From Lichina pygmaea (taxonomy: Eukaryota > Ascomycota > Lichinomycetes > Lichinales > Lichinaceae), in the NCBI GenBank assembly GCA_963422465.1, contig OY730171.1:2170001-2234000 (forward strand): a stretch of DNA of 64,000 bases, written 5' to 3'. The notes under the pieces are model-generated. The model saw nothing but the letters and a program-made list of their open reading frames with translations, did no database searches and was not told where the DNA came from. This document shows, piece by piece, positions 41,055 to 61,919 of this stretch. Each line of letters opens with the position of its first letter. Position 1 is the first letter of the stretch. Both the position numbers and the translations under genes were made by a program.

Positions 41055-41489
41055 GGACTAAGTTGAATTCTTCTGATCTGATTGTTGTACTGTTGACACA
41101 CAGTTGTAGGTTCTTGGTCTTTTTCATCACTTGTCCTTGGTAGTTGGAGAGTGATGTCCTGTCCACTACTGTTAGCTGGTATAGATTCCTTTTCTTGTAA
41201 GTTGGGATCTTGTACTTCCTGGCAAAACTTTCTAACATGAAGTTGCTGGTAGCTCCAGAGTTGATCATGGTGTTTGTTAAATGTCTGTTAACTCTTATCT
41301 TGATGTGAAAATATAGACTGTAGGCTGTTGTGTTAAGGCTCTGCTCAACCTCTTCTCTCCAGAGTGTTGTCTTGCCTGCTCTTCCAACTCCAGATTTGAA
41401 GAGCACTGCTAGTTTTTTGAACAGCCAAGACTCTGGGCCTGGTGTTCTGCTGCATGCTTCTTACATTTCTCAGTGAAGTATAGCTTCTA
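41055..41489 (-). mobile_element. Ty3/gypsy fragment H (protease part)
   Basis: This short piece encodes a retroviral-type aspartic protease start (INSGATSNFMLESFARKY). It resembles the protease of element D at the right end of the window (INSGATGNFMSESFARRN), so it is a relic of a D-like family. It is bounded by the LINE1 tail on the left and the G long terminal repeat on the right. It is a broken fragment only. Confidence 0.7.
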
Positions 41490-41904
41490 TGTGTTTTCTC
41501 TGCAATTGTTGTGTTCTTTTCCTTGCTGGCTTAGCTGGTAGCTGATACTCCTGTGACAAGGCAATAGCAGAGCAGAACTCAAGCCTAACTGATTCAGTAA
41601 CCTTGACCTGACTTGGCTTGAGACTTGAGACTTGGATTGATGTACAAGACAAAAGACAAGGAAGAAAGAAAAAGAGAAAAGAAAAGAAGAAGCTGGGGGA
41701 GCAGAAGAAGTTCTTATAGGCAGGGGATCAGGCAACAGCAGAGCAAACAGGCAACAGTGCAGATGGAACTTCCCAGCAAGGTGTGTGACTTGTGCCAGAT
41801 ATGTAACAAGGCAATAGCAGAGCAAACAGGCAACAGTGCAGATAGAACTTCCCAGCAAGGTGCATGACTTGTGCCAGATATGCAACTGGGCCAGAACTGT
41901 GACA
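41490..41904 (-). repeat. 3' LTR of element G
   Basis: It starts with TGTCACAG on the minus strand, just after a purine-rich tract. It holds two tandem units of about 86 bp (about 41722-41885) sharing GCAATAGCAGAGCAAACAGG and GGAACTTCCCAGCAAGGTG-like blocks. The lower-coordinate end is approximate. Confidence 0.55.
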
Positions 41905-44900
41905 TTACCCCTCTTCTTCACATAGCAAACTCCTGTAAGCCTCAGGCTGCTTGTGGGCGTAGTTCTGTGGCTGTGGTTTCCTTGGGTATTTCTCATGGAA
42001 GTTGTAGATGGTGTCTTTGGTGTTGTCAAGATACTCAATAGACTTTTCAGTGGTATCTTCAATTGGCCATCCAGACTATTTGACCAGGTACTTGAACTTC
42101 TGTCAAGACATTGCTGGTTTGGAGTCAAGGATTTCTTCAATCTGGAACTCTTCATCTGTGTCTTGACCAATGACAGGGCCAGGGTGTTCATTTGATTGGC
42201 CAGAGATAGGATTAGCAGGTGTCAGACGTAGAAAGGAAACATGAAAGACAGGGTGGATCTTGAGAGTGTGTGGAAGCTTCAGATGGCAGGCATGGCTTCC
42301 GACTGTCTTCAACACCTTGAATAGTCCAATCCACTTGTTGTCAAACTTTTTGCATGGGCGGCATGTCCTGATGTTCTTGGTATTCAGCCAAACAAGATCT
42401 CCAGTTTGATAGGACAGTGACAGGACTTGATGTAAATTAGTAGTATGAGCTTGAGCTTCCTGGGATAGTCGGAGTTCAGCTTACAACTGTTCCAGAATCT
42501 GCGTCATTTCTCCAGAGATTTCCATAGCATCTTGGTTGCAGGCTTCACTCGTGGGTGTGATGCTGAGCTGTGGATAGAACCCTTTGTTGGCAAAGAACAG
42601 TGATATACCAGAGGAATCAGACTGGGAGTTGTTCTGCGTGAACTCTGCCAGAGGAAGCCATTGGACCCAGTCATCTTGGAGATAGTTGACATAGGATCTC
42701 AGGTAGTGTTCAAGCTCCTGATTCTCTTGTTCTGTCTGACCATCTGTCTCTGGGTGGTGTCCTGAGGATAGTTGTAGCATGACATCAAGATGGGCACAGA
42801 GTACTTTCCAGAATAAGCTGACAAACTAACCTCCTCTGTCTGAGACAATGCTCCTGGGCAAGCTATGAGTACAGACAACAAACTGGATGAACATCCAGAC
42901 AAGATGCGAGGTTGTCATCTCAGCACATAGCACAAAGTGGTGTTTTTTGGTGAGACAGTCAGTGATGACCCAGATGTGCTTGGCACCAGGGAAGCAGGCA
43001 TCTCTTGACTTGGGCAAGTTAGTAATGAAATCTATAGCCAGATCCTGCCAATGTTGCTGAGACACGGGAAGAGACAGCAGCTCTCCTTTGCGATTATGGG
43101 CAGGCTTTGCTCAAGAGCAGACATGACAATTCCTGATGTACTGCCATATGATGTTCACTATCTTTAGCCAATAGTACCAACAAGACAGGAGATTATGGAT
43201 CTTGGCAATCCCAGTGTGGCCAGCCATTGCTTGGTCATGGACTTCTTGGAACAGGTGTAGGTGTAGCTTATTGTTCTCAGGGATCCAGAGTCAGTTCTTG
43301 TAGAAGAGATAGTTATTTTCCAAGCTGCAGTCTGAGAGAGACACTTCTTGACTGTGCCTGACACTATCTCTTAGCATCTGTGACACTGTTGCCACTGGAT
43401 CACCTTCAGCAAGGTTGTTATAGGTAGTTTGGATGATGTCTGAAAGAGGTGCAGCATCAGCTTCAGTATCAACTAGTGCAGCTTCTGAACATCTCAGGAT
43501 CTGGATAGGCTTGACTTGAACCTCTGAATATGTAAGATTCTTGGGCTTGAGGATGACTTACTCCATGAAGTCTTGACAGAGATCACTGTCTGACAGGAGG
43601 TCTTGGGAATATTGAGTGAGGGTGTTGGCCTTGCACTGACTGCCTGGACAGTAGCTGATCTTGAAATTGAAGTGTGACAAGAACTTGCTCCAACAGGCTT
43701 GACAGCGGGAAAAGCACTTTGACAACATGAAGTACTCCAAGTTCTTGTGATCAGAGATCACCTTGACAGGTTCTGGAGATCCTTCAAGCTCTGCTCGCCA
43801 TTCTTCAAAGGCATGGACAATTGCCAGCAACTCTTTGTTGTAGATCTTGTAGTTGCATTCTGCTGGCAGGTGGTGGTGTGACAAGAAGGCAACAGAGTGT
43901 AGAACTCCTTCATAGTCTGGCTGTGACAGGACAGTACTAGAGATGTAGTCAGAAGTGTCAGTCTCAACAACACACTCCTTCTCCAGATCAAAGTGCTGCA
44001 GGATAGGTGCAGTGCTGAACACTTTCTTGATACTTTCAAACAAGCGCTGCTCTGGGGTTTCCCACCTGAAGGCAACATTCTTCTTGGTCAGAGCTGTGAG
44101 TAGGGATACAAGCTTGGCAAAGTCTTTGGTGAACTGGCAGTAGAAGTTTGCAAAAGTAATGAAGCTCTACACTTCCTTGACACTGGCAGGAGGATTCCAC
44201 TCCTTGATAGTGTCAGTCTTGGCTGGGTCCATGCTCACAGATCCGGGTCAGCCATCTTCAGTAGCAGACTGAATGATGAGGCCAAGGTACTTGACTTGAT
44301 ACACTTCAAAGTCACACTTGGAGATGTCAACTTGCAGGCTTGCATCTTGTAGTCAACTGAGAACAAGCTTGACATACTTCTGGTGTTTCTTGAGTGTCTG
44401 ACTGTAGACAAGGATGTCATCCACATAGGCAGTGCCAAAGACATCAAGGATGTCAGGTCCCAAAACATTATTGATGTAGTTCTGGAACATGCTTAGAGTA
44501 TTGGCAAGACCAAAGGACATGACAAGGTATTTGTAGAGGTCTGAGCGTGTGCAGAACGCAGTCTTCTATTCTTCACCTTCCTTCATCTGGATACAGTTGA
44601 AGGCACCAACAATGTTGAGCTTGGTGTACCACACAGCTTTGCAAAGCTGGTCCAACATCTCCTTAATCAGTGGCAGAGGGTAACAGTTCTTGATGGTGAT
44701 GGTGTTGAGTGCTCTGTAGTCTACACAGAAACACAATCCACCTCCTGACTTCTTGACAAAGAGGACTGGTGCAGCAGTAGGTGATGAAGATGCTTGAATA
44801 AAGTCCTTGTTCAGGTTCTCTGTCAGGTACTTCTTGAGAACTTCAAGTTCTTCTCTGCTCATGCTGTACAGAGGTCCAGAGGGTGCCTGAGTTCCTGGTT

Positions 44901-49422: not shown

Positions 49423-51032
49423 TAGTAGAAGACTCAGAGTCATCAAACACAAGAGTGGTAGACCAACTGGTGCAGAAAAAGAGAATCCAGGAAGATAGCC
49501 AGAGAGGAATTCCTTTTCTCTCTAGGATTTGTTGGAGGATCTTAGGTAGAACTCTGTCATAGGCTTCTGAGATATCCAGAGAATGTAGAGATGCAACCAT
49601 GCCTTCCTTCCAGACTTTTTCCACTTGGGAAGTTAGTAGGAAGAGTGCTGATTCAGTTGATCTTTCTTTCCTGAAGCCCATCTGGATTTCTAGCAAAAGT
49701 CTAGCTTCTTCTGCTACCTTGCTTAGCCTGGTTGCTGTAATAGCTTCCATCAGCTTGCCAGTTGTGTTTAGCAAAGCTATAGGGTGCCAGGCTTTAGCTT
49801 GGTTATAGTATCCTTTACCAGGTTTTCTTAGACAGACTGTCTTTGCATTCTTGAACCTCTCTGGAAAGTATTCCAGTCTCCAGCATGTTGATGTGAGAAC
49901 AGCCATAGCTTGGCAGAACTTGGAACCCAGAGCTTTCAGAAATCTATTTGGCAGCTTATCTTTTCCCCCTACTGTAAAAGGTTTCTTCTTGTTTAGGATT
50001 TACTCCACTTCTTCAGCTGTAACCTTCTGGGAGAGCTAGATCTCTGGAGTACTCTGGGATCTTTCTGTACTTGATTCTGGGGTGAGTGCTTTGGGAAAGA
50101 ACTGGGCTGAGAATGCTTTTGTCTTCTCCTCAAAGATTTTAGCTAGTCCTTCTTGAGTTTCCAAGTCTGGGACCAGAGGAAGATCAGAAGTTCTGTTGGC
50201 TTTTGTCTTTCCTCACTTTGCAAGCTTCCAGAATTTTGAGGAACTGGCTAGCTCATGGACTTGTTGCCTGAAGGTGGTCTGCTTTCCCTCTCTGACTGCT
50301 TTTTTCTTGTTCTTAGTTGCTTGCTCAAGGTCTTCTTGAGATGCCTGTCCTCTGAGAACTTGTCTTCTTACTCTTCTTTCCTCTCTAACCTTGTTTTGGA
50401 TGTCTTGGTTCCACCAGGGAACTGAGTGACCAGATTACTTCTGGAGCTGTGTATATTTGCTTACCACTTCTTGGAGAAAGTTGTCCAGATAATCCAAGTA
50501 CTTATCCACTTCATCTTTGTCTTGAAAGTGGGAAGGTAGCTGTAGCTTCTCACACTCTACTCTTGCAAGGTTTGAGTCCAGTGTCTTCCAGTTCCTTTCT
50601 GGCTTCCAGGTGTTCCTTGGAGAATCCAGGTCTAGGCTAGTTTGTATAGGTCTGTGGTCAGACCCATGAAAGAACTGGAGAGCTACTTTAGAGAAAATCA
50701 GGGAGTTAGAAAGAGAAGAAGAAATAAAAGACAGATCAATTGCAGAACATGGTTTTTCTGAAAGAGATCTTGCTCTGGTGGGAGTAAAAGGTGCAATAGC
50801 TAAATCCAGATTTAAATCTTTCATTAGACCTTGGAACTTGTTTGCAGTGTCAGAGTACAGTCTTCTTTTCTTTGACCAGTCTGGGTGGTGGAGGTTTGAA
50901 TCTGTGAGAAGAATATGTTGTCCTTGTACTTGTAACGCATTTTGAAGTAAACAGAGAAGAGCTTCTGATACCTCTGTATAGTTTTCTTGACTTGATGGGG
51001 TAAAGTAAAGATTATGCACCTAAAGAGAAGTA

Positions 51033-51632
51033 TGTTACAACCCCTGGGATAGAAGCCACTTATTTATAGGCAATCAGGCTGTGGGTCAGGCAAGAGGACA
51101 CTATGGAAGTCAAGTGACCAACCAACAAGGGGTCACGTGACTGTCGAGACACACAGGTGGCTTGACACAGTATGCATGAAGCATCAAGACAATCTCACCA
51201 GTCTTGATGCAGGATGCAGGAAGCATTAAGACAGTCTCACCAGTCTTGACATAGTGTGCATGAAGTATTGAGACAATCTCACCAGTCTTGACACAGAGTG
51301 TATAACATAGTGGGACTGTCAAGACAATCTCACCTGTCTTGATGTCAAGACTGTCAAGATAATCTTGATCATCTTGACAGGCCAGCACTATATAGTCTGG
51401 TGATAGTTCCCTTATGGAATGATCATCTTCAACTCATGTTGTGATCTAGACAACTAGATCTACTTCAATACAATCCTTTTGTACAAAGCCATTAATCAGG
51501 TGTCACCACCACCATGTTCCACCAAACCTCTTTGCACTTCTTGACACTTCTCTCCTGCAAGAACCAACCTGCCTTCTGTATCTCACCCTTAATCCTATAC
51601 TCAGTTAGGATAGCACAGTACAGACTGCAACA
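51033..51632 (+). repeat. 5' LTR of element A
   Basis: A 600-bp LTR starting TGTTACAACCCC and ending GACTGCAACA. It contains four or five tandem units of about 36 bp (GACAATCTCACCAGTCTTGA) and a CTATATAG box at about 51389-51396. Confidence 0.88.
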
Positions 51633-53150
51633 CTTTGAAGACTCTCAAGGATGAGTACCTCAGAAGCAACCAACCCCAACTTCCCAGATGGAAAGATTAG
51701 CTTCACCAAACCAGACCTGTTCTACAGTGAAAGGAACAAGATTGACAACTGGCTTATGCAACTCCAAGTCTACTTTCAATTCCAACCGGAGATGAGACTG
51801 CCTAAAGAAAAGTGGCCACTCTTCGTAACCACTTACATGAGAGGTAATACTTATTGATGGATCAAGCTCTACGCCAACAAACATCTCTCAGGAAACAGAG
51901 ACTACAACAGTACAACAGAATGGATGACAAAATAGACATGATTCAAGGACAAGATCAAAAGGATTCTTGGACTATCTAACAAAGACAAAGTGGCTATACA
52001 AATAATCCAGCACATCAAACAACAACGCTCAGCTGCCAAGTACACCACGCAATTCAAGCAATACTCAGTGCTCTGACTGGGACAACAACACCCTGATAGT
52101 CATGTACTGATGTGGACTTAAAGAAAACATGAAGGATGAAATCACCTTTGACAGATGAGCAGTCAACACACTGGACAAGCTCATCACACAAGCAATCAAC
52201 ATCGATGACAAGCTATTTGAGTGAGTGATGGAGAAACACCACGACAGAGAACACAGCTACCCTGCATGGCATGTGAGCAACCACTACAAGCCACCTAACA
52301 AGGCACCACCACATGACCCATATGGTTATACACCCATGGAACTGGATACAGTCCACTACAGAGAAAAGTTCACAAAGGGAAGAAACAACAAAAAAAGGAA
52401 AGCACTGAAGTGCTATACCTGTGGCAAGCTAGGCCACATAGCAAAAGACTGTTGTTCAAAGAACAAGGTGTACTGACAGTAACTTAATACGCTTGATGGA
52501 GACTGGAATGTTATCAAGCTGGAGGACTCACCAGAAGAGGCTTGGCTATCCCTCAAACAATAGGACAAATATGATCAGACATTAGAAGCAGTCCACCAAC
52601 TGGCAACATCAGAAGGCAAGGACCTACCAGAACAGACAGGTCAGGACAAGGGATAGGAGCTCTTAACCACCTCTGATGGGGACTGAGACAAACCTACATC
52701 TATCAAAGAAGAAATACCACAAGGAAGCTATGCTTACAGCATGGACTCACAAAGCCTATGGCATAGTGAACTACAGTGGAGGTTTTGCACAAAACACTAC
52801 TGCACCTACCACAAACAACTACAAAAGTACAGAGGACATTGACTCTACCGTGCCATCTGCCACAAGTATTAGGTCAATTACAAGAAGGATATGTGTGAGA
52901 TCTATCTTTGGGACAAACACCAACACACCACATTCCCCAGGCACACACATAATTAGCACAAACACCTCATGTTCCTACAGCAAGGCAACAACCACAACTG
53001 CTACATCAACAATTGGCAGTACTGCCTTAAACCCAGATGTGACAAGCATCAGCAAGACAAATTCATGAACAGATTCCTCAGAACTGATAGGAATAGCTGG
53101 ACCCATTGCCCAGTCAGTGGAAAAACACTTCAATCAGGAAAAGATTGAAC
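51033..53150 (+). mobile_element. Ty3/gypsy chromovirus A (fossil, left part)
   Basis: The 5' LTR (51033-51632) is followed by gag (from about 51651, NPNFPDGKISFTKPDLFYS), a CYTCGKLGHIAKDCC knuckle (about 52419-52460) and a Cys/His-rich spacer (about 52740-53070). It stops at 53150, where the LTR of element D begins. It is the same family as E. It is broken several times. The remainder should lie beyond the right edge. Confidence 0.85.
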
Positions 53151-53577
53151 TGTTAAAGGCCGGGCCGAGTTCACACAGAAGGCGGCTCAGTCTGTTGCTT
53201 CGCAGGGCGGATTCTAGACAGGGACTCGGTAGAGGAATAGACAGGTGGGGTAACTCTCCTGTGCTATTGTCTCAGTACGATGGGTTTGTATTGTGTGTTC
53301 AGCCTGGAGAGCTAATCTCTCCGGACTCTTTGGGGGGTCTTTATACAGATGCCCCAAGGGGGGGGGTCTCCTCGAGAGGTATTATTCTTTTGCGTGGATG
53401 AGCTCCTCACTTAGCTCCTGCTTGTCCACCGGACGAGCTCCTTGCTTAGCTCCTGCTTGTCCACCGGACAAGCTCCTCGCTTAGCTCTTGCTTGTCCACC
53501 AGATCAGTCGGATGTTGTTCTGTATGACTAACACTCCTCCCTCACTTACCTGGGCTGTTCCGGCCTAGGCCTTAACA
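53151..53577 (-). repeat. 3' LTR of element D
   Basis: A 427-bp LTR with inverted ends TGTTAA and TTAACA. It contains three tandem 35-bp units (GAGCTCCTCACTTAGCTCCT then GCTTGTCCACCGGAC) at about 53399-53503 and a G run near 53361. Confidence 0.8.
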
Positions 53578-53761
53578 CTATCCCCTCCCTCCAAGAGTTC
53601 TGTCCCCAGATCCTTTTCATTCCTGCTCCTCTTTTGTCATGAACCAAGGCCAGACAACTTGAACTTGTCATCGCGGTTTTCTTTCTTGTTGTATTGGCAA
53701 AATAGGCAAGGAATCAAAAATCACATGCGGTGCTTGTTGTCGCGACCACACCCAGTGTGTT

Positions 53762-54211
53762 GTGAGCTCCACATCATCTTTTTGTTGTCAGTGTGTTGAG
53801 AAAGGTTGTCACTGTGATCTTCATCTCTTGGAATCAGAATGGAAGAAGATGGAACTTGAGTGTGAGCAGCTCAAGGCTCAGCTGCGGGAGACTGATGACC
53901 AATTGTCAAAGTTGCTTCCCTGGCAGATCTGCCTCCGCTGGCAGCCGGGTTGTCTCTCACAGAAGGAGGCTGATGCCATCTGTCGTGAGCTGTCTGCCAT
54001 CAAGGATCAGGAATCCCTTGATGCTCAGGAACAGGAGGCTCTCTATGTTATCCACAAACAGGAGGCCAGTCAGACTGCTGCTCCACTGTCCTTTGAGGAT
54101 GTCTTCTCTTCAGAGACTTTGGCTTCTCTCGAGCTGTTGTCTCCGTCGGACCTGGTCACTGCGAGTTTGCTTGGTGGTAATCCACCAGCTTCTGGTTCAT
54201 CGCAGAGCTGA
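53762..54211 (+). other. Antisense ORF in element D: Cys-motif plus coiled coil
   Basis: An uninterrupted frame of about 149 codons on the strand opposite D, between its 3' LTR and its chromodomain, overlapping the chromodomain end. It starts near a Cys motif (FCCQCVEKGCHCDL) and continues with a heptad-rich helix (LESEWKKMELECEQLKAQL), a second helix (KEADAICRELSAIKDQESLD) and a Ser/Gly/Pro tail. The true start is unsure. The frame extends upstream of 53762 with more Cys (CGACCRDHTQC), and no good ATG is obvious. Frames of this kind recur in fungal Ty3 elements in my recollection, but I know of no assigned function. Confidence 0.6.
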
Positions 54212-55365
54212 AGTTCTCGGTTGGTTCCCACGAATTTTCCTCTTTGTCAAATCCTAACCACTTCACCAGGTACTCAGTTTTCTGTCTGTTTCTTCAACTA
54301 TCCAGGATCCTTTCAACATTGTACTCTTCTTCATCATCCTTGAAGTTCCATTCTGTCTTGATCTCTGTGTCGCTGGGTGCTGATTCAAGCAGCAAGACAT
54401 AGAATACTCAGTGTATCCTTGCTTTTTGTGGTAGTCTCAGTTGATAGTTGACTTTCCCAGTGCACTTCTCAATTTCGAATAGTCCGATTCGTACGTGGTC
54501 CAGCTTTTTGCTCGGTCACTTTGAGCGCAGGTTTTTTGTTGATAGGTAGACTTTATCCCCCTTTTCCAGGGTTGGTCTCTTCAACCTTTTGTCGTGTAAT
54601 CAGCGGGCGGTGGCGTTCTGGGCATAGTCAATTGTTGTTTTCATCATCTCGTGCATAGCAGCAAGTTTGCTAACATCAACAACATTGCCTCCTGCTGTTG
54701 CCTGCCATCAGGGGTTTCTTGCGTAGTTCGCAAAGAACAGTGTTGTCTCTGTCACACTGTGTTGCTGGTTGTTGTACACAAACTGGGCTGTTGGTAGCAG
54801 TTCCACCCAGTTATCCTGCTGGTAGTTGATGTAGTGTTGTAGATACTGCTCTATTGTCTGGTTTGTCCGCTCAGTTTGTCTGTCAGTTTGTGGGTGGTAG
54901 GCTGTTGACATGCTTGTATCAATGCCAAGTTGCCTTGTCCACGTGTTCCAGAATTTCAAGGTGAAGAGTTTGTCTTGATCCAAGATGATTGTCTTTGGTA
55001 GCCCTCAGTGGCTTACCAGCTCTTTGAGTAGGACACTCACAAGTTTGTTCGTGGTTCCTGACTCTTTCCACAGGACCAGGTGGGTGTATTTGGTGAGCTT
55101 GTCAACAATCACCAAAATGCTATTATATACCACCTTTGTTGCTGGGTCTGTTGACTTTGGCAACTTGACCACAAAATCCATTGTGATAGTTTCCTATAGT
55201 GCCTTGGGTAGGTCTATTTGCTGTGCCTGCCTATAGAGCTTATGTCTTGATGGCTTGTTCTTCACACACTGTTCGCAGTTACAGATGAACTCTGTCACCT
55301 TGCACTTCATTCTGTCGAAGCAGTAATTCCTTTGGATTTTCTCCAAGGTTTTATCTTGCCCAGGG

Positions 55366-55370
55366 TGTCT
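55366..55370. repeat. Target-site duplication of E, left
   Basis: TGTCT, identical to 61915-61919. Confidence 0.88.
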
Positions 55371-55971
55371 TGTTACGACCCAGGGGATGGGAGCCACTCA
55401 TTTATAGGCAATCAGGCTGTGGGCCAGGCAAGAGGACACCATGGAAGTCAAGTGACCAACCAACAAGGGGTTACGTGACTGTCGAGACACACACAGGAGT
55501 CTTGACGCAGCATGCATGAAGCATCAAGACAATCTCACCAGTCTCAACGCAGGATGCATGAGGCATCAAGACAATCTCACCAGTCTCGACACAGGATGTA
55601 TGAAGCATCAAGACAATCTCACCTGTCTTGACGCAGGGTGCATAACATAGTGGGACTGTCAAGACAATCTCACCTGTCTTGACATCAAGACTGTTGAGAC
55701 AATCTTGATTGTCTAGACAGGCCAGCACTATATAGTCCAGTGATAGTTCCCTTATGGAATGATCATCTTCAACTCATGTTGTGATCCAGACAACTAGATC
55801 TACTTCAATACAATCCTTTTGTACAAAGCTGTTGATCAGGTGTCACCACCACCACATTCCACCAAACCTCTTCGCGCTCCTTGACACTCCTCTCCTGCGA
55901 GAACCAACCCACCTTCCACCTCTCACCCTAATCCTATACTCGGATAGGACAGTACAGTACAGACCACAACA
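55371..55971 (+). repeat. 5' LTR of element E
   Basis: It starts TGTTACGACCC, ends CCACAACA, and has the same internal 36-bp units as the LTR of A. It is close to the 3' LTR; the differences I see are almost all transitions. Confidence 0.92.
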
Positions 55972-58900
55972 CTTTGAAGACCCTCAAGGATGAGTACCTC
56001 AGGAGCAACCAACCCCAACTTCCCAGATGGAAAGATTAGCATTGCCAAGCCAGACCTGTTCTACAGCAAAAGAAACAAGATCAACGACTGGCTCATGCAA
56101 CTCCAAGTCTACTTTCAATTCCAACCAGAGACAAAGCTGCCTAAGGAGAAGTGGCCCCTCTTCGCAACCACTTACATGAGAGGCAATACTTATTGATAGA
56201 TCAAGCCCTACATCAACAAACATCTCTCAGGAAACAGAGACCATGATGGCACAACAGAATAGATGACAAAATAGACATGATTCAAGGACAAGATCAAAAG
56301 GATCCTTGGACTATCTAAGAAAGACAAAGTGGCTATACGAATGATCCAGCACATCAAACAACAATGCTCAGCCGCAGAGTACACCACATAGTTTAAACAA
56401 TACTCAGTACTGACTGACTGGGACAACAACACCCTGATGGTTATGTACTGATGTGGACTCAAGGAAAACATGAAGGATGAAATCACCTTCAACAGACGAG
56501 TAGTCGACACACTGGATGAACTCATCACACAAGCAATCAACATTGATGACAAGCTATTCAAGTGAGTGATGGAGAAATGCCATGACAGAGGATACAGCCA
56601 CCCCACATGGCATGTGAGCAACCACTACAAGCCGCCTAACAAGGCACCACCACATGACCCATATGGCTATGCACCTATGGAACTGGATGCAGTCCACCAC
56701 AAGGGAAGGTTCACAAAGGGAAGGAACAACAAAAAGAGGAAAGCACTGAAGTGCTATACCTGTGGCAAGCTAGGCCACATGGCGAAAGACTGTTGTTCAA
56801 AGAACAAGATGCACTGACAGTAACTTAATACACTTAACAGAGACTGGAATGTCATCAAGCCAGAGGACCCACCAGGAGAGGCTCAGCTATCCCTCAAACA
56901 ATAGGACAACTACGATCAGACATTGGAAGTAGCCCACCAACTGGCAACATCAGAAGGCAAGGACCTACCAGAACAGACAGGTCAGGATAAGGGACAGGAG
57001 CCCTTAACCACCTCTGATGGGGACCAAGACAAACCCACGTCTATCAAAGAAGAAATACCACAAGGAAGCTATGCTTACAGCATGGACCCACAAAATCTAC
57101 AGCACAGTGAACTACAGTGGAGGTTTTGCACAAAGCACTACTGCACCTACCACAAACAACTACGAAGGTACAGAGGACATTCACCCTACCACACCACCTG
57201 CCACAAGCATTGGGTCAATTGCGAGAAGGATACATGTGAGATCTATCTTTGGGACAAACACCAACACACTGCATTCCCCAGGCACACACATGATTGGCAT
57301 GAACACCTCATGTTCCTACAGCAAGGCAACAACTACAACTGCTACGTCAACAATTGGCAGTACTGCCTCAAGCCTGGATGTGACAAGCATCAGCAAGACA
57401 AATTCATGAACAGATTCCTCAGAACTGATGGGAGTGGCTGGACCCATTACCCAGTCAGTGGAAAGACACTTCAATCAGGAAAAGACTGAACTCCCTTGTC
57501 AAGGGGTGACATCAGAAGCTCAACAACATGACCCCTAGCAACACAAAGCACCTGCGATTGCCTGTGTCACTACACGCCAACACGCCAGTACAGACATACG
57601 CACTTGTGGACTCTGGAGCCAGTGGAAACTACATCTCAAGACAACTTTATGATACTCTCAGCACTGGACGGAGATGCAAGCAGCAGCCCTATCAGCTCAC
57701 GATGGCAAATAGACAGACAGAGCTAGTCTGCCATAAGACGCAGCCAATAGAAATAGTTACCAGACACCATGCTAAAAAGATCCAACTTGATATTGTCAAG
57801 TTGGCCACTCAGGATATCTATTTGGGGATGCCTTGGCTAAAGAAGCATAACCCAGTTGTTAACTGGAAGACAGGAGTACTCACATTTAGGAACTGCACTA
57901 ACAACACAGCTCAGACCTGTTACCAGCCGCAGAAGGCGTGGACAGATGAGGGAAGGAGTCCTCAGTGGAACCTCACTGACAGAAAGGACAACTCTCAAGA
58001 GAAGAGGTCTGCCTTGACAGGCACACCCCAGAACCAGGTGGCCAAACAGTCAGAGATGAAGAGAGAGGAAGTTGTTAACCCTCTGGAGATCCCTGAAGAG
58101 TACTGACCTGGGTATGATAACCTCTTTCAGGAAGAGACAACAACAGCAGTGTTGCCTAAGCACCAACCTTGGGATCATGAGATCAAGTTGCAACCAGGGA
58201 CAGAGCCAGGATTTGGACCAATTTACCAGTTATCAGAGAAAGAGCTCCAAGTACTTCGCGAGTACCTGGAGGAAAACCTGAAAAAGAGTTTCATTCAAGA
58301 ATCTCAATCGCCAGCAGGATACCTGATACTATTTGCACCAAAGAAAGACAGAAGTCTTCAACTTTGTGTGGATTACAGGAAACTCAACAACATTACCATC
58401 AAGAACTGATATCCGTTGCCAAATGCGAACAAATTGCAAGACAGGATCAGCCAAGCTACAATCTTTACCAAGCTGGACTTGAAAGGAGTATACAACCTGA
58501 TACACATGAAAGAAGGAGAAGAATGGAAGACAGCCTTCAGAACCTGATACAGACACTACGAGTATCTGGTTATGCTATTCAGACTCACAAACACACCAGC
58601 AACATGTCAAGCATTGATCAACAACATCATCAGAGCACACCTGGACCAAACAGCTATCGCCTACCTGGACAACATTCTTGTCTACTCGAACACGCAACAG
58701 GAACATACCAAACATGTGAAGGATGTTCTACGATGCCTACAACAGGCAGAGCTCAAGCTCAACCCAAAGAAATACAAGTTCAACAAACTGGAAGTTGAAT
58801 TCCTTGGATATGTCATAGGGATTAAAGAGATCAAGATTGACCCTGAGAAAATCAAAGCAATTCAGCAATGGCCAACACTGATGTCAGTTAAGGAAGTACA

Positions 58901-60789
58901 AGCCTTCCTAGGATTTGCCAACTTCAACTGACAGTTCATTAAGAACTACTCACAGATGGCAACACCACTAACAGAACTCACAAAGAAGGACGTGGAGTAC
59001 TGGTGGACAGAGAGACAACAAAAAGCATTCTAACAGCTCAAGGACACTTGCACCAAGGAACCAGTTCTCCTCAACTTCAAGACAGGCCAACCAACACAAA
59101 TCAAGATGGATGCTTCAGATCAGGCAGTAGGAGCATGTCTATGCCAACAGGCAGATGGCAAGTGGCACCCAGTTGCCTACTACTCACAAAAAATGACACA
59201 AGCAGAACAAAACTATGATATCCACGACAAAGAGCTATTAGCAGTCGTCAACGCACTCGAACACTGGAGAGTGTACACGGAAAGTAGTTCTGAACTCACT
59301 GTTCTCACAGACCACAAGAATCTGACAACATTCACAACAACCAAGAAGCTGAACAGACAGCAAGTCAGATGGGCTGAACTCCTAGAGCAACACAAGTTCA
59401 AGATCTTGTACACCCCTGGACAAGACAACAGGAGAGCAGACACACTAAGCTGACAAAAAGACCACATGGAAGATGATGAACACCAAGGAACAATCTTACA
59501 GCAGGACCAGCAAGGAAACCTGGTGCCTCAGCCACAGATCAACAAGCTCACGGCAGAAGACACTGAAGAACTAATAAGGAACTACCACGACAATCCAGCA
59601 CATGGTCACCCAGGAATCTCCAAGACCACAGACCTTATCCAACAGGCAGGGAACAATGTTATTAACCTCTGACAACATATCACAAACTACATCAGCAAGT
59701 GTCTACTATGCCAGAAAAACAAACATGGAAGACACAAGCCATACGGAGAAGGACACCCGAACATGATACTGAGAGGCCTGTGGGAAGACGTGTCAATAGA
59801 CTTTATCACAAAGCTACCCAAGTCCAAAGACCCAGTCACAGGAATCACCTACGACTTGATTATGGTGATAGTGGACAGATTCACAAAATATCTAATAGTG
59901 GTACTATTCAAGGAGACCCACACAGCAGAACAGTTGGGACACCTTTTACTGGACAGATTGGTTAGAGACCACGGAGTTCTGATCACAATCATTACAGACA
60001 GAGACAAACTCTTCACATCCAACTACTGGAAGACAATCAGTGCAGCTATGGGAACAAAACCCAAAATGTCTACAGCCTATCACCCACAAACTGACAGCCA
60101 GACAGAGTGAGCAAACCAAGTCCTGGAGACTTACTTACAGTATTACATCAACCAGACCCACAGCAATTGGGTACAGTTATTACCGGTGGCACAGCTGGCA
60201 ATCAACCAGCACAGATCAGACTCAACAAAGGAATTGCTATTTTTTGCCAATTTTAGATGACATGCAAACATTGGGATGCCAAGCAGAGCTTCACCAAACA
60301 CGGAGAAAGCACTCCAACATGACAAGCTCCTACGACAAACGCACACAATGATGAGGCACTACCTTCAAGAGACCTCAGAAAGAATGCAACATCAAATAGA
60401 CAAGAAATTGAAAATAGCACCTCAGCTAAAGGAGGGGGATAAAGTCTACCTCCTTACAAGAAATTGGAAAACAAAGAAACTAAAGACAAAGAAACTTGAT
60501 AACATCAAGGTCAGACTATTTTCAGTCGAAGAAAAAACAGGACCAGTCAACGTCAAGATACGACTACCAAGGGATGCCAGAGTCCATCCAAACTTTCATA
60601 TATCAATGATTGAACCAGCCGACCAGAGCACACCCTTGCAGGAAACATTCCATTACCAACCTGAAGAAGAACAAGAATTTGAGGCTGAACAGATCCTGAA
60701 GAGAAAAAGTCAGTGATACCTTGTCAAGTGGAAAAACTACCCAGACTCGGAAAATACCTGGGAACCACTCAGGAACCTCGCGAACTGCC

Positions 60790-61146
60790 AGCTCCTCCTG
60801 CAGCAGTTCCGGCAGAAGCAGGACTGAACAGCTCGGCCTGCAGCGCGGACGTGTCAATAACCGTCGCCAACAAATCTTCACCATCCGCCTCTATTTCAGC
60901 AACAAGGCACTGGAGCTTCTTCTTCGCTTGACCCTCAGCACCCTCAAGAACCTTTCACTTTCAGGACACACAAGCCTGCAGCTCAGCAAGCTGCTCAACA
61001 AGAGCATCCCACTTGGCCTCATCAACAGCCAAATCCTTGTGAAGGTTATCTCAAGTCATGTTCAACAACTCCCAAGAAAGTGACACACAGGACTTTCCAC
61101 GACAAGTGCATTCAGCGCACTTCAACTTATCGTTGTTGTCAGACAT
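60790..61146 (-). other. Antisense ORF relic in element E: Cys-motif plus coiled coil
   Basis: On the strand opposite E, between the chromodomain end and the 3' LTR, an ATG at 61146 begins a reading frame with a Cys motif (KLKCAECTCRGKSCVSLSW), a helical region (DEAKWDALVEQLAELQA; QAKKKLQCLVAEIEADGED) and an Ala/Gly/Ser tail. The layout and position match the antisense ORF in element D, although the two elements are different families. This copy is broken (a few interruptions). Confidence 0.6.
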
Positions 61147-61313
61147 TCGGAAGCAGGGCTTGTGGTTCAAAATACAGAAGTCACACAGAGCAAGCGACAC
61201 AAAGTTATGATTACAGATCTGGGCTGCCAGTTGGTTTCAGTAAGCAGAGACACGTGATTTTGCAGACATACTCAAGAATTCATCAGGACAATGAATGAAG
61301 GAGAGGAGGGTAG

Positions 61314-61914
61314 TGTTATGACCCAGGGGATGGGAGCCACTTATTTATAGGCAATCAGGCCACGGGCCAGGCAAGAGGACACCATGGAAGTCAAGTGACC
61401 AACCAACAAGGGGGCATGTGACTGTCAAGACACACACAGGAGTCTTGACACAGCATGCATGAAGCATCAAGACAATCTCACCAGTCTTGACACAGGATGC
61501 ATGAAGCATCAAGACAATCTTACCAGTCTTGACGCAGGATGCATGAAGTATCAAGACAATCTCACCTGTCTCAACACAGGGTGCATAACATGGTGGGACT
61601 GTCAAGACAATCTCACCTGTCTTGACATCAAGACTGTCAAGACAATCTTGATTATCTTGACAGGCCAGCACTATATAGTCCAGTGATAGTTCCCTTATGG
61701 AACAATCATCTTCAACTTATGTTGTGATCCAGACAACTAGATCTACTTCAATACAATCCTTTTGTATGAAGCCGTTGATCAGGTGTCACCACCACCATGT
61801 TCCACCAAACCCCTTCGCACTCCTTGACATTCCTCTCCTGCGAGAACCAACCCGCCTTCCACCTCTCGCCCTAATCCTATACTCGGATAGGACAGTACAG
61901 TACGGACTGCAACA
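61314..61914 (+). repeat. 3' LTR of element E
   Basis: It starts TGTTATGACCC and ends GACTGCAACA, directly after a GAAGGAGAGGAGGG purine tract. Confidence 0.92.
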
Positions 61915-61919
61915 TGTCT
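61915..61919. repeat. Target-site duplication of E, right
   Basis: TGTCT. Element D sequence resumes here. Confidence 0.88.

Follow-up and report, generated by a model that had tools for sequence, protein, structure and literature searches.

Do the two nested chromoviruses in this part of the Lichina pygmaea genome carry an additional gene on the strand opposite to pol, and if so, what might its product do? The window, by which we mean the whole analysed stretch of 64,000 nucleotides, covers positions 2170001-2234000 of one contig (OY730171.1) of an assembly of 32.5 Mb in 8 contigs. It contains element E nested inside element D, both of the Ty3 type with long terminal repeats (LTRs), and pol is read on the minus strand in D and on the plus strand in E. 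Opposite pol, each element has a frame that lies between its chromodomain and its 3′ LTR. Comparison of copies within the genome indicates that D and E, together with two related families termed D′ and E′, almost certainly carry at this place a protein-coding gene under selection. The best explanation we can offer, with a probability of about 0.55, is that this antisense gene encodes a regulator acting on the element's own LTR. The coordinates of all features are collected in Table 1.

The earlier note on this DNA had described a plus-strand frame in D at 53762-54211, open for 149 codons and antisense to pol, and a frame at the matching relative place in E. Both were borne out. Its statement that the frames start 170-185 bp from the 3′ LTR was not, because later start codons had been taken: with LTR edges (polypurine tract and TGTTA) at 53577 in D and 61314 in E, the distance from the antisense ATG to the edge is 61 nt in D (ATG 53639) and 44 nt in E (ATG 61269). 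Less decayed copies in the same genome give a full frame of 190 amino acids for D and 166 for E. In the window copy of D a single in-frame stop, at 53660-53662, interrupts this frame, which then stays open over 53663-54208.

A tblastn search of the window with one open protein per family gave no further copy except a 12-residue match (E-value 0.57). Searching the genome at the protein level with the D frame yielded 269 candidates; the best 150 were scored, showed 76-100% identity and included many with open frames of 182-213 codons. With E DNA as query the best 40 of 473 candidates were scored. We retrieved 79 D copies (8 from the search plus every odd rank from 9 to 149 of the best 150) and all 40 scored E copies. 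Copies were aligned to the window copy and insertions were dropped, so that counts of open frames are blind to insertion frameshifts. Codon counts are based on 76 of the 79 D copies, L050, L052 and L068 being omitted as partial or because of a foreign flank.

Relatives were sought through the chromodomain. A first look at the 32.5-Mb genome gave 966 chromodomain candidates, of which the best 150 were scored, and 22 flanks were hand-chosen from these (L132-L135 for their likeness to L128). The presence of homologues at the same antisense position had been set as a test beforehand, and they were found in 21 of the 22 chosen flanks. Twelve belong to the new family E′, five to the new family D′, and four are E-like, one of the latter (L130) with several stops. 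The remaining flank, L140, by eye holds sequence like the window's non-LTR elements instead. One D′-D pair is 64% identical and one E′-E pair 68%. The D′ frame is open in all five copies over the retrieved part. IMG/VR was also tried as a source of relatives and set aside: it gave 12 and 38 pattern matches, none of them a relative by tblastn.

The openness of the D frame stood, but its length, which had seemed noteworthy, did not. Of 2000 dinucleotide shuffles of the D region, 206 had 149 or more codons in a row without a stop in one of six frames, and 48 reached the observed 182. Length of the open reading frame was therefore rejected as evidence for a gene. From 53663 onward 58 of the 79 D copies are open, and stops occur at 1.8 per 1000 codons in the antisense frame versus 15.3 when the same copies are read in the pol frame. 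This low stop count was likewise rejected as a sign of selection, since it is in part a result of arginine codon choice: the D frame uses mostly CGY and CGG and not CGA, which amounts to 2.1 per 1000 codons versus 11.3 in pol. It is conservation, not length, that exceeds chance.

The ratio of nonsynonymous to synonymous divergence (dN/dS, method NG86) had medians of 0.266 for the antisense frame between D and D′ (76 × 5 copies) and 0.177 between E and E′ (40 × 12 copies). In these alignments, four of the five remaining frames gave 0.87-1.77. The selection for an extra antisense gene that had been suggested earlier is thus supported by the second test set beforehand as well, with values of 0.18-0.27 between families against 0.87-1.8 in four other frames. 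Omission of codons with CpG-type differences left pooled ratios of 0.30 (D and D′) and 0.18 (E and E′). In neutral simulations, in which the same substitution types were placed randomly, none of 2000 was as low in each of six pairs, hand-picked among little-decayed copies. Sites without a shared base between families numbered 32, 21 and 61 at codon positions 1, 2 and 3 in D (p = 1e-5) and 26, 19 and 60 in E (p = 1e-6). As synonymous sites are near saturation, the ratios are rough, and the contrast with the other frames together with the simulation is the stronger argument.

Judged by regional ratios, purifying selection is strongest in a region with six cysteines and, in D, in the helix that follows it. 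The six-Cys core is the tightest part (dN/dS 0.095 in D, 0.143 in E). The helix of D has 0.149, and that of E is saturated in dS. Looser values were found for the E N-terminus (0.26), the D tail (0.44), the E tail (0.73) and the D N-terminus (0.92).

In L089, a little-decayed D copy encoding 190 amino acids, the Cys region reads CGACRRDHAKC-VVSSASSF-CRRCIEKGRRC, and in the 166-residue E protein of L100 it reads CDFCVLNHKPC-FRMSDDNDKLK-CAECTRRGKSC. The common pattern is C-x2-C-x6-C-x(8 or 11)-C-x2-C-x6-C, with x8 in D and x11 in E. The earlier note had rightly noticed a Cys motif, but the stretch it quoted is only half of it, three of the six Cys lying upstream in both elements, and the quoted strings were rejected as the conserved motif since some of their Cys are decayed Arg codons. 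Indeed, where L089 has Arg, the alignment of 76 copies (L089 among them) shows Arg 692 times, Cys 549 times and His 258 times, Arg codons becoming Cys and His by CpG-type changes. In both D and E, roughly half of the minor-allele counts come from C/T changes before G and G/A changes after C. Each of the six Cys codons survives in 72-75 of the 76 copies of D, in 37-40 of the 40 of E and in all 12 of E′. In D′ each is kept in all five copies, save the last Cys (four of five). In the alignments A1 and A2, whose members are open copies holding the motif and were chosen from motif-requiring lists, the six Cys are invariant or nearly so.

Zn2Cys6 clusters have the spacing C-x2-C-x6-C-x5-12-C-x2-C-x6-8-C, and this spacing of PF00172 is present with the x8 of D and the x11 of E across the four families. 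Basic residues lie within the D cluster. A coiled-coil element after the cluster is present in both proteins as a predicted monomer helix, spanning residues 65-147 in D (83 residues) and 66-135 in E (70 residues), with a predicted local distance difference test score (pLDDT) mostly above 90. Among 22 D-type proteins, 9 match Zn_clus, a family that Pfam describes as fungal, below threshold (best E-value 0.0083). A search of PDB sequences with L088 listed a coiled-coil protein first (E-value 0.022), then PUT3 (0.13 and 0.17) and LEU3 (1.1). Profile searches of PDB sequences gave only weak matches, including CYP1/HAP1 (0.56) and LEU3 (0.57) for D and no Zn2Cys6 protein for E. With the D model, seven of eight PDB matches found by Foldseek are Zn2Cys6 proteins (PUT3, GAL4, HAP1, AlcR), the best with an E-value of 0.13. 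A small zinc-cluster, coiled-coil protein that would bind DNA as a dimer is the best-supported working model. The likeness to factors such as Gal4, Put3 and Hap1 lies in the six-Cys spacing, the basic D cluster, the coiled coil after it and the acidic-hydrophobic D tail. Unlike these factors, the D and E proteins are below the Pfam cut-off, have 166-190 amino acids in all and are encoded antisense inside a retrotransposon.

How such a gene could be transcribed is suggested by the LTR of E and E′. On the antisense strand, TATAAAT lies 78-80 nt ahead of the ATG in 38 of 40 E copies; in 12 of 12 E′ copies the same strand has boxes of the TATATAAA type 75-77 nt ahead of the ATG. Mononucleotide shuffles matched the TATA box in 1.3% and 2.5% of cases. 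In the window the antisense box is kept at each of the three E-type LTR edges, and the boxes of E and E′ are co-located although much of the nearby LTR sequence differs. E and E′ have here a candidate antisense core promoter, situated inside the LTR and pointing into the gene. D and D′ would need an antisense promoter of the TATA-less kind.

The LTRs also hold tandem arrays. Those of E contain inverted repeats that approximate CAAGAC-N10-GTCTTG and vary chiefly at CpG-type positions. A 35-bp array lies in the D LTR, and the D′ copies L133 and L134 have a 47-bp array. That the arrays may serve as operators is a guess. Tandem 42-bp units with the inverted repeats were seen in E-type LTRs of the window at 55483-55707, 61426-61659 and 51185-51376, and the 42-bp period is close to four helical turns.

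In the reading that we favour, an antisense promoter in the 3′ LTR would drive the gene. Two zinc ions would be held by the six Cys of its product, in the manner of Zn2Cys6 clusters, and two copies of the protein would pair through the helix, as Put3 and Gal4 do. This dimer would bind DNA, with the element's own LTR as natural target; in E the target would be the 42-bp array with its CAAGAC-N10-GTCTTG inverted repeats. A feedback on the element's own transcription, activating or repressing, would result. Such a scheme would resemble HTLV HBZ in layout and a minimal Gal4 or Put3 in chemistry. Of the functions raised in the earlier note, that of a regulator fits best the six-Cys spacing, the coiled coil and the antisense TATA box in the LTR of E and E′, as an inferred function only. 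For the DNA-binding regulator model as a whole, which draws on sequence and predicted structure, we see about even odds. Its sharpest form is tentative: fungal chromoviruses would encode their own antisense, LTR-driven zinc-cluster transcription regulator, which would bind tandem inverted repeats in their own LTRs, and families would keep or exchange it as a 3′ module. If true, this would be a self-contained feedback circuit that parallels HTLV HBZ in a retrotransposon and uses the DNA-binding module most favoured by the fungal host.

Several results weigh against this reading. With regard to the gene, few copies keep the full frame open: 22 of 76 in D, 7 of 40 in E and 1 of 12 in E′. Pooled dN/dS within families, with CpG-type changes kept, is higher (D 0.41, D′ 0.78, E 0.51, E′ 0.51), as expected because copies decay after insertion. 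The reverse frame that shares third positions also has low ratios (0.38 and 0.28); in it position 1 and not position 2 is slowest, and it is open in no copy. With regard to the cluster, the gathering cut-off of 21 bits for Zn_clus was missed: in a scan of five D proteins three scored 11.1-16.1 bits and two had no match, 16.1 bits being the best listed score, and the Pfam scan of 13 E-type proteins gave no match to Zn_clus. A genome scan with PF00172 at an E-value of 0.1 (41 candidates scored) listed 35 matches and 34 places over the cut-off, and by eye none of the 35 listed lies at the antisense-gene place of a D or E copy. The Foldseek E-values are individually weak, the E model had no Foldseek match, and the Cys regions of both models are of low confidence. 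Owing to scores below the Pfam cut-off and weak or absent fold matches, the D and E proteins are not filed as members of PF00172. With regard to the promoter, the TATA box was found in none of 63 usable D copies (16 of the 79 were unusable, the start being unrecognisable or the flank too short) and in none of five D′ copies. Furthermore, the box is shared within a family by descent, so that the independent points are two families only. Finally, the D and E proteins are without clear homology: blastp gave an E-value of 1.0, hhalign a probability of 2.3% with an E-value of 0.021, and the best cross pair an E-value of 0.006. In the hhalign alignment the Cys are in register, at a weak score. Of the earlier view of a frame shared by two different families, the common layout stands, and the two proteins may share ancestry, which the comparison supports weakly.

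The strongest competitor, which we consider rather unlikely, accepts the antisense protein and makes it a zinc-binding coiled-coil accessory that helps to assemble particles, package RNA or bring the integration complex into the nucleus. The same selection evidence applies to it, a coiled coil and a zinc motif would also be in keeping with assembly or a nucleic-acid chaperone, and roles like those of retroviral accessory proteins are proposed in excerpts of PMC7264820. Nevertheless, the six-Cys spacing of D and its Foldseek matches point to a DNA-binding cluster, and separate antisense transcription suits regulation better than stoichiometric assembly. An improbable alternative, suggested by the earlier note, is a counter-defence factor that shields the element from host silencing or mutation. 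The heavy CpG decay indicates that a defence or methylation pressure exists; the gene-bearing copies decayed nonetheless, and the Pfam matches listed for the D and E proteins include no family known to us as silencing-linked. For counter-defence or an assembly factor, nothing that we found speaks in particular. A little less probable again is that the antisense transcript and not a protein matters, as double-stranded RNA or a long noncoding RNA tuning the element. The antisense TATA box in the LTR agrees with this, as do antisense transposable-element RNAs of barley powdery mildew, Ty3 included, which were cloned and judged noncoding according to excerpts of PMC10648671, but a codon-level constraint in the order position 2 < position 1 < position 3, which survives the CpG filter, is unexpected for RNA alone. 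The weakest alternative, a frame that is no gene and merely shadows base composition and codon use, could appeal to a length reachable by chance and to the D arginine codons, and is ruled out, unless the signal comes from another feature, by dN/dS, the neutral simulations, the conserved Cys and homologues at the same place in four families.

Outside fungi the LTR-acting regulator that we favour has a parallel in HBZ of HTLV-1, a bZIP protein likewise encoded by an antisense gene. To our knowledge, no sequence relation of the D and E proteins to HBZ is to be expected. Excerpts of PMC11963269 describe a nuclear location of HBZ and a role in the virus cycle, and excerpts of PMC7264820 an HTLV antisense promoter inside the 3′ LTR. 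Antisense frames between pol and the 3′ LTR, as in D and E, are also found in the plant aORF-3R genes (Grande gene23, RIRE2, Retand). According to excerpts of PMC7264820 and PMC11963269 the Grande protein is nuclear, a regulatory role was proposed by the authors, and the roles of the plant antisense genes are described as not known; for Retand, with a TRP28 domain, DNA binding is predicted (PMC11963269, excerpt). The plant lineages differ from D and E in their domains (TRP28, Smc), neither of which is among the listed Pfam matches of the D and E proteins.

The nearest fungal case is brtn, an antisense gene in Boty-like Ty3 elements of Botrytis cinerea, which excerpts of PMC8365987, PMC7264820 and PMC4227169 credit to Zhao et al. 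(2011, Virology 417:248) and which PMC7264820 places between pol and the 3′ LTR. Like brtn, the D and E genes are antisense to gag-pol in a fungal Ty3 element and lie between pol and the 3′ LTR; they may be relatives of it, the likeness being one of layout. A Monilinia transcript similar to truncated Pol and BRTN is mentioned in an excerpt of PMC5987419. Among the open-access titles and abstract starts listed we noticed no antisense gene of zinc-cluster type in LTR elements of fungi, Zhao et al. (2011) aside, which leaves absence from print unproven. Thus, the kind of gene is already known, in a fungus since at least 2011 and in plants for longer. What looks new in these searches, with the reservation of Zhao et al. 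(2011), is its zinc-cluster-like build, the evidence for selection and the presence of an antisense TATA box within the LTR. A single genome here offers four families with the gene at the same place, codon-level selection and a constrained core that resembles a DNA-binding domain, besides a candidate operator array and, for two of the families, an antisense TATA box in the LTR. The open question of what antisense retrotransposon genes do can with this be taken to direct tests on LTR DNA. For annotation, the case is a warning that antisense Ty3 RNA in fungi may be messenger and not noncoding.

DUF3716 (PF12511), a Cys-rich domain of fungi, was considered as the family of the proteins and rejected: at five retrieved places, three in sequence of GC 0.51-0.59 and two of 0.46-0.47, no converging chromodomain was recognised by eye. 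The genome has 14 DUF3716 places, 9 of them over the cut-off of 22 bits, and by eye these nine are not at D- or E-copy places. One of 13 E-type proteins matched at an E-value of 0.13, below that cut-off, and none was listed among the 22 D-type proteins. A likeness exists in two CxxC-type half motifs and, in copy L142, a KCVV stretch (by eye); the six-Cys pattern of the genome DUF3716 places recalls that of the D protein.

The D family comprises two subfamilies, g1 and g2 (g2: L040, L045, L063, L066, L078, L080, L081 and L086-L089), which were compared with window positions 53600-55100. Their pol sequences are strongly diverged, whereas the antisense gene and the 3′ end are nearly identical. 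Near-fixed differences number 8 in 53600-54259 versus 92 in 54260-55100, climbing near 54400. Thus, g1 and g2 share a 3′ module, and with so little difference in the antisense gene the comparison was rejected for dN/dS. It seems that elements exchange the 3′ end as a module.

Two single copies are of mixed appearance. L050 has a D-type antisense gene behind a foreign flank, which by eye also resembles a minus-strand frame at window positions 41487-42191. L131 has an E-like N-terminal half and an E′-like helix and is apparently an E/E′ recombinant.

Table 1. Features of elements D and E in window coordinates (strand +, − or, for arrays, unassigned)
Feature	Position	Strand	Remarks
D antisense gene	53639..54211	+	190 codons from ATG plus stop
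D six-Cys region	53726..53815	+	C-x2-C-x6-C-x8-C-x2-C-x6-C, residues 30-59
D long helix / coiled coil (predicted)	53816..54079	+	residues 60-147
D acidic-hydrophobic tail	54080..54208	+	residues 148-190; 6 acidic and 0 basic residues in L089
D 3′ LTR	53150..53577	−	inner edge 53577 from polypurine tract and TGTTA edge; outer limit approximate
35-bp × 3.0 tandem array, D LTR	53396..53500	.	CCGG at 53429-53432 and 53464-53467
Element E, nested in D	55371..61914	+	601-bp LTRs 55371-55971 and 61314-61914
E target duplication TGTCT	55366-55370 and 61915-61919		flanks E on either side
E chromodomain coding end	60687..60818	+	placed by homology with L097; about 47 nt overlap with antisense gene
E antisense gene	60769..61269	−	166 codons from ATG 61269 plus stop; 4 in-frame stops in window copy
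E long helix / coiled coil (predicted)	60865..61086	−	residues 62-135
E six-Cys region	61087..61185	−	C-x2-C-x6-C-x11-C-x2-C-x6-C, residues 29-61
Antisense TATA box TATAAAT (candidate)	61343..61349	−	36 nt inside E 3′ LTR, 80 nt before antisense ATG
42-bp × 3.5 tandem array, E LTR	61441..61586	.	inverted repeats close to CAAGAC-N10-GTCTTG
E LTR inverted repeats	61426, 61468, 61510, 61552, 61603		close to CAAGAC-N10-GTCTTG

Beyond these features, the genome looks very rich in chromoviruses, and their copies are heavily CpG-decayed. In the window, positions 51031-53140 hold another E-type 5′ LTR and a gag-like fragment, ending about where D begins.

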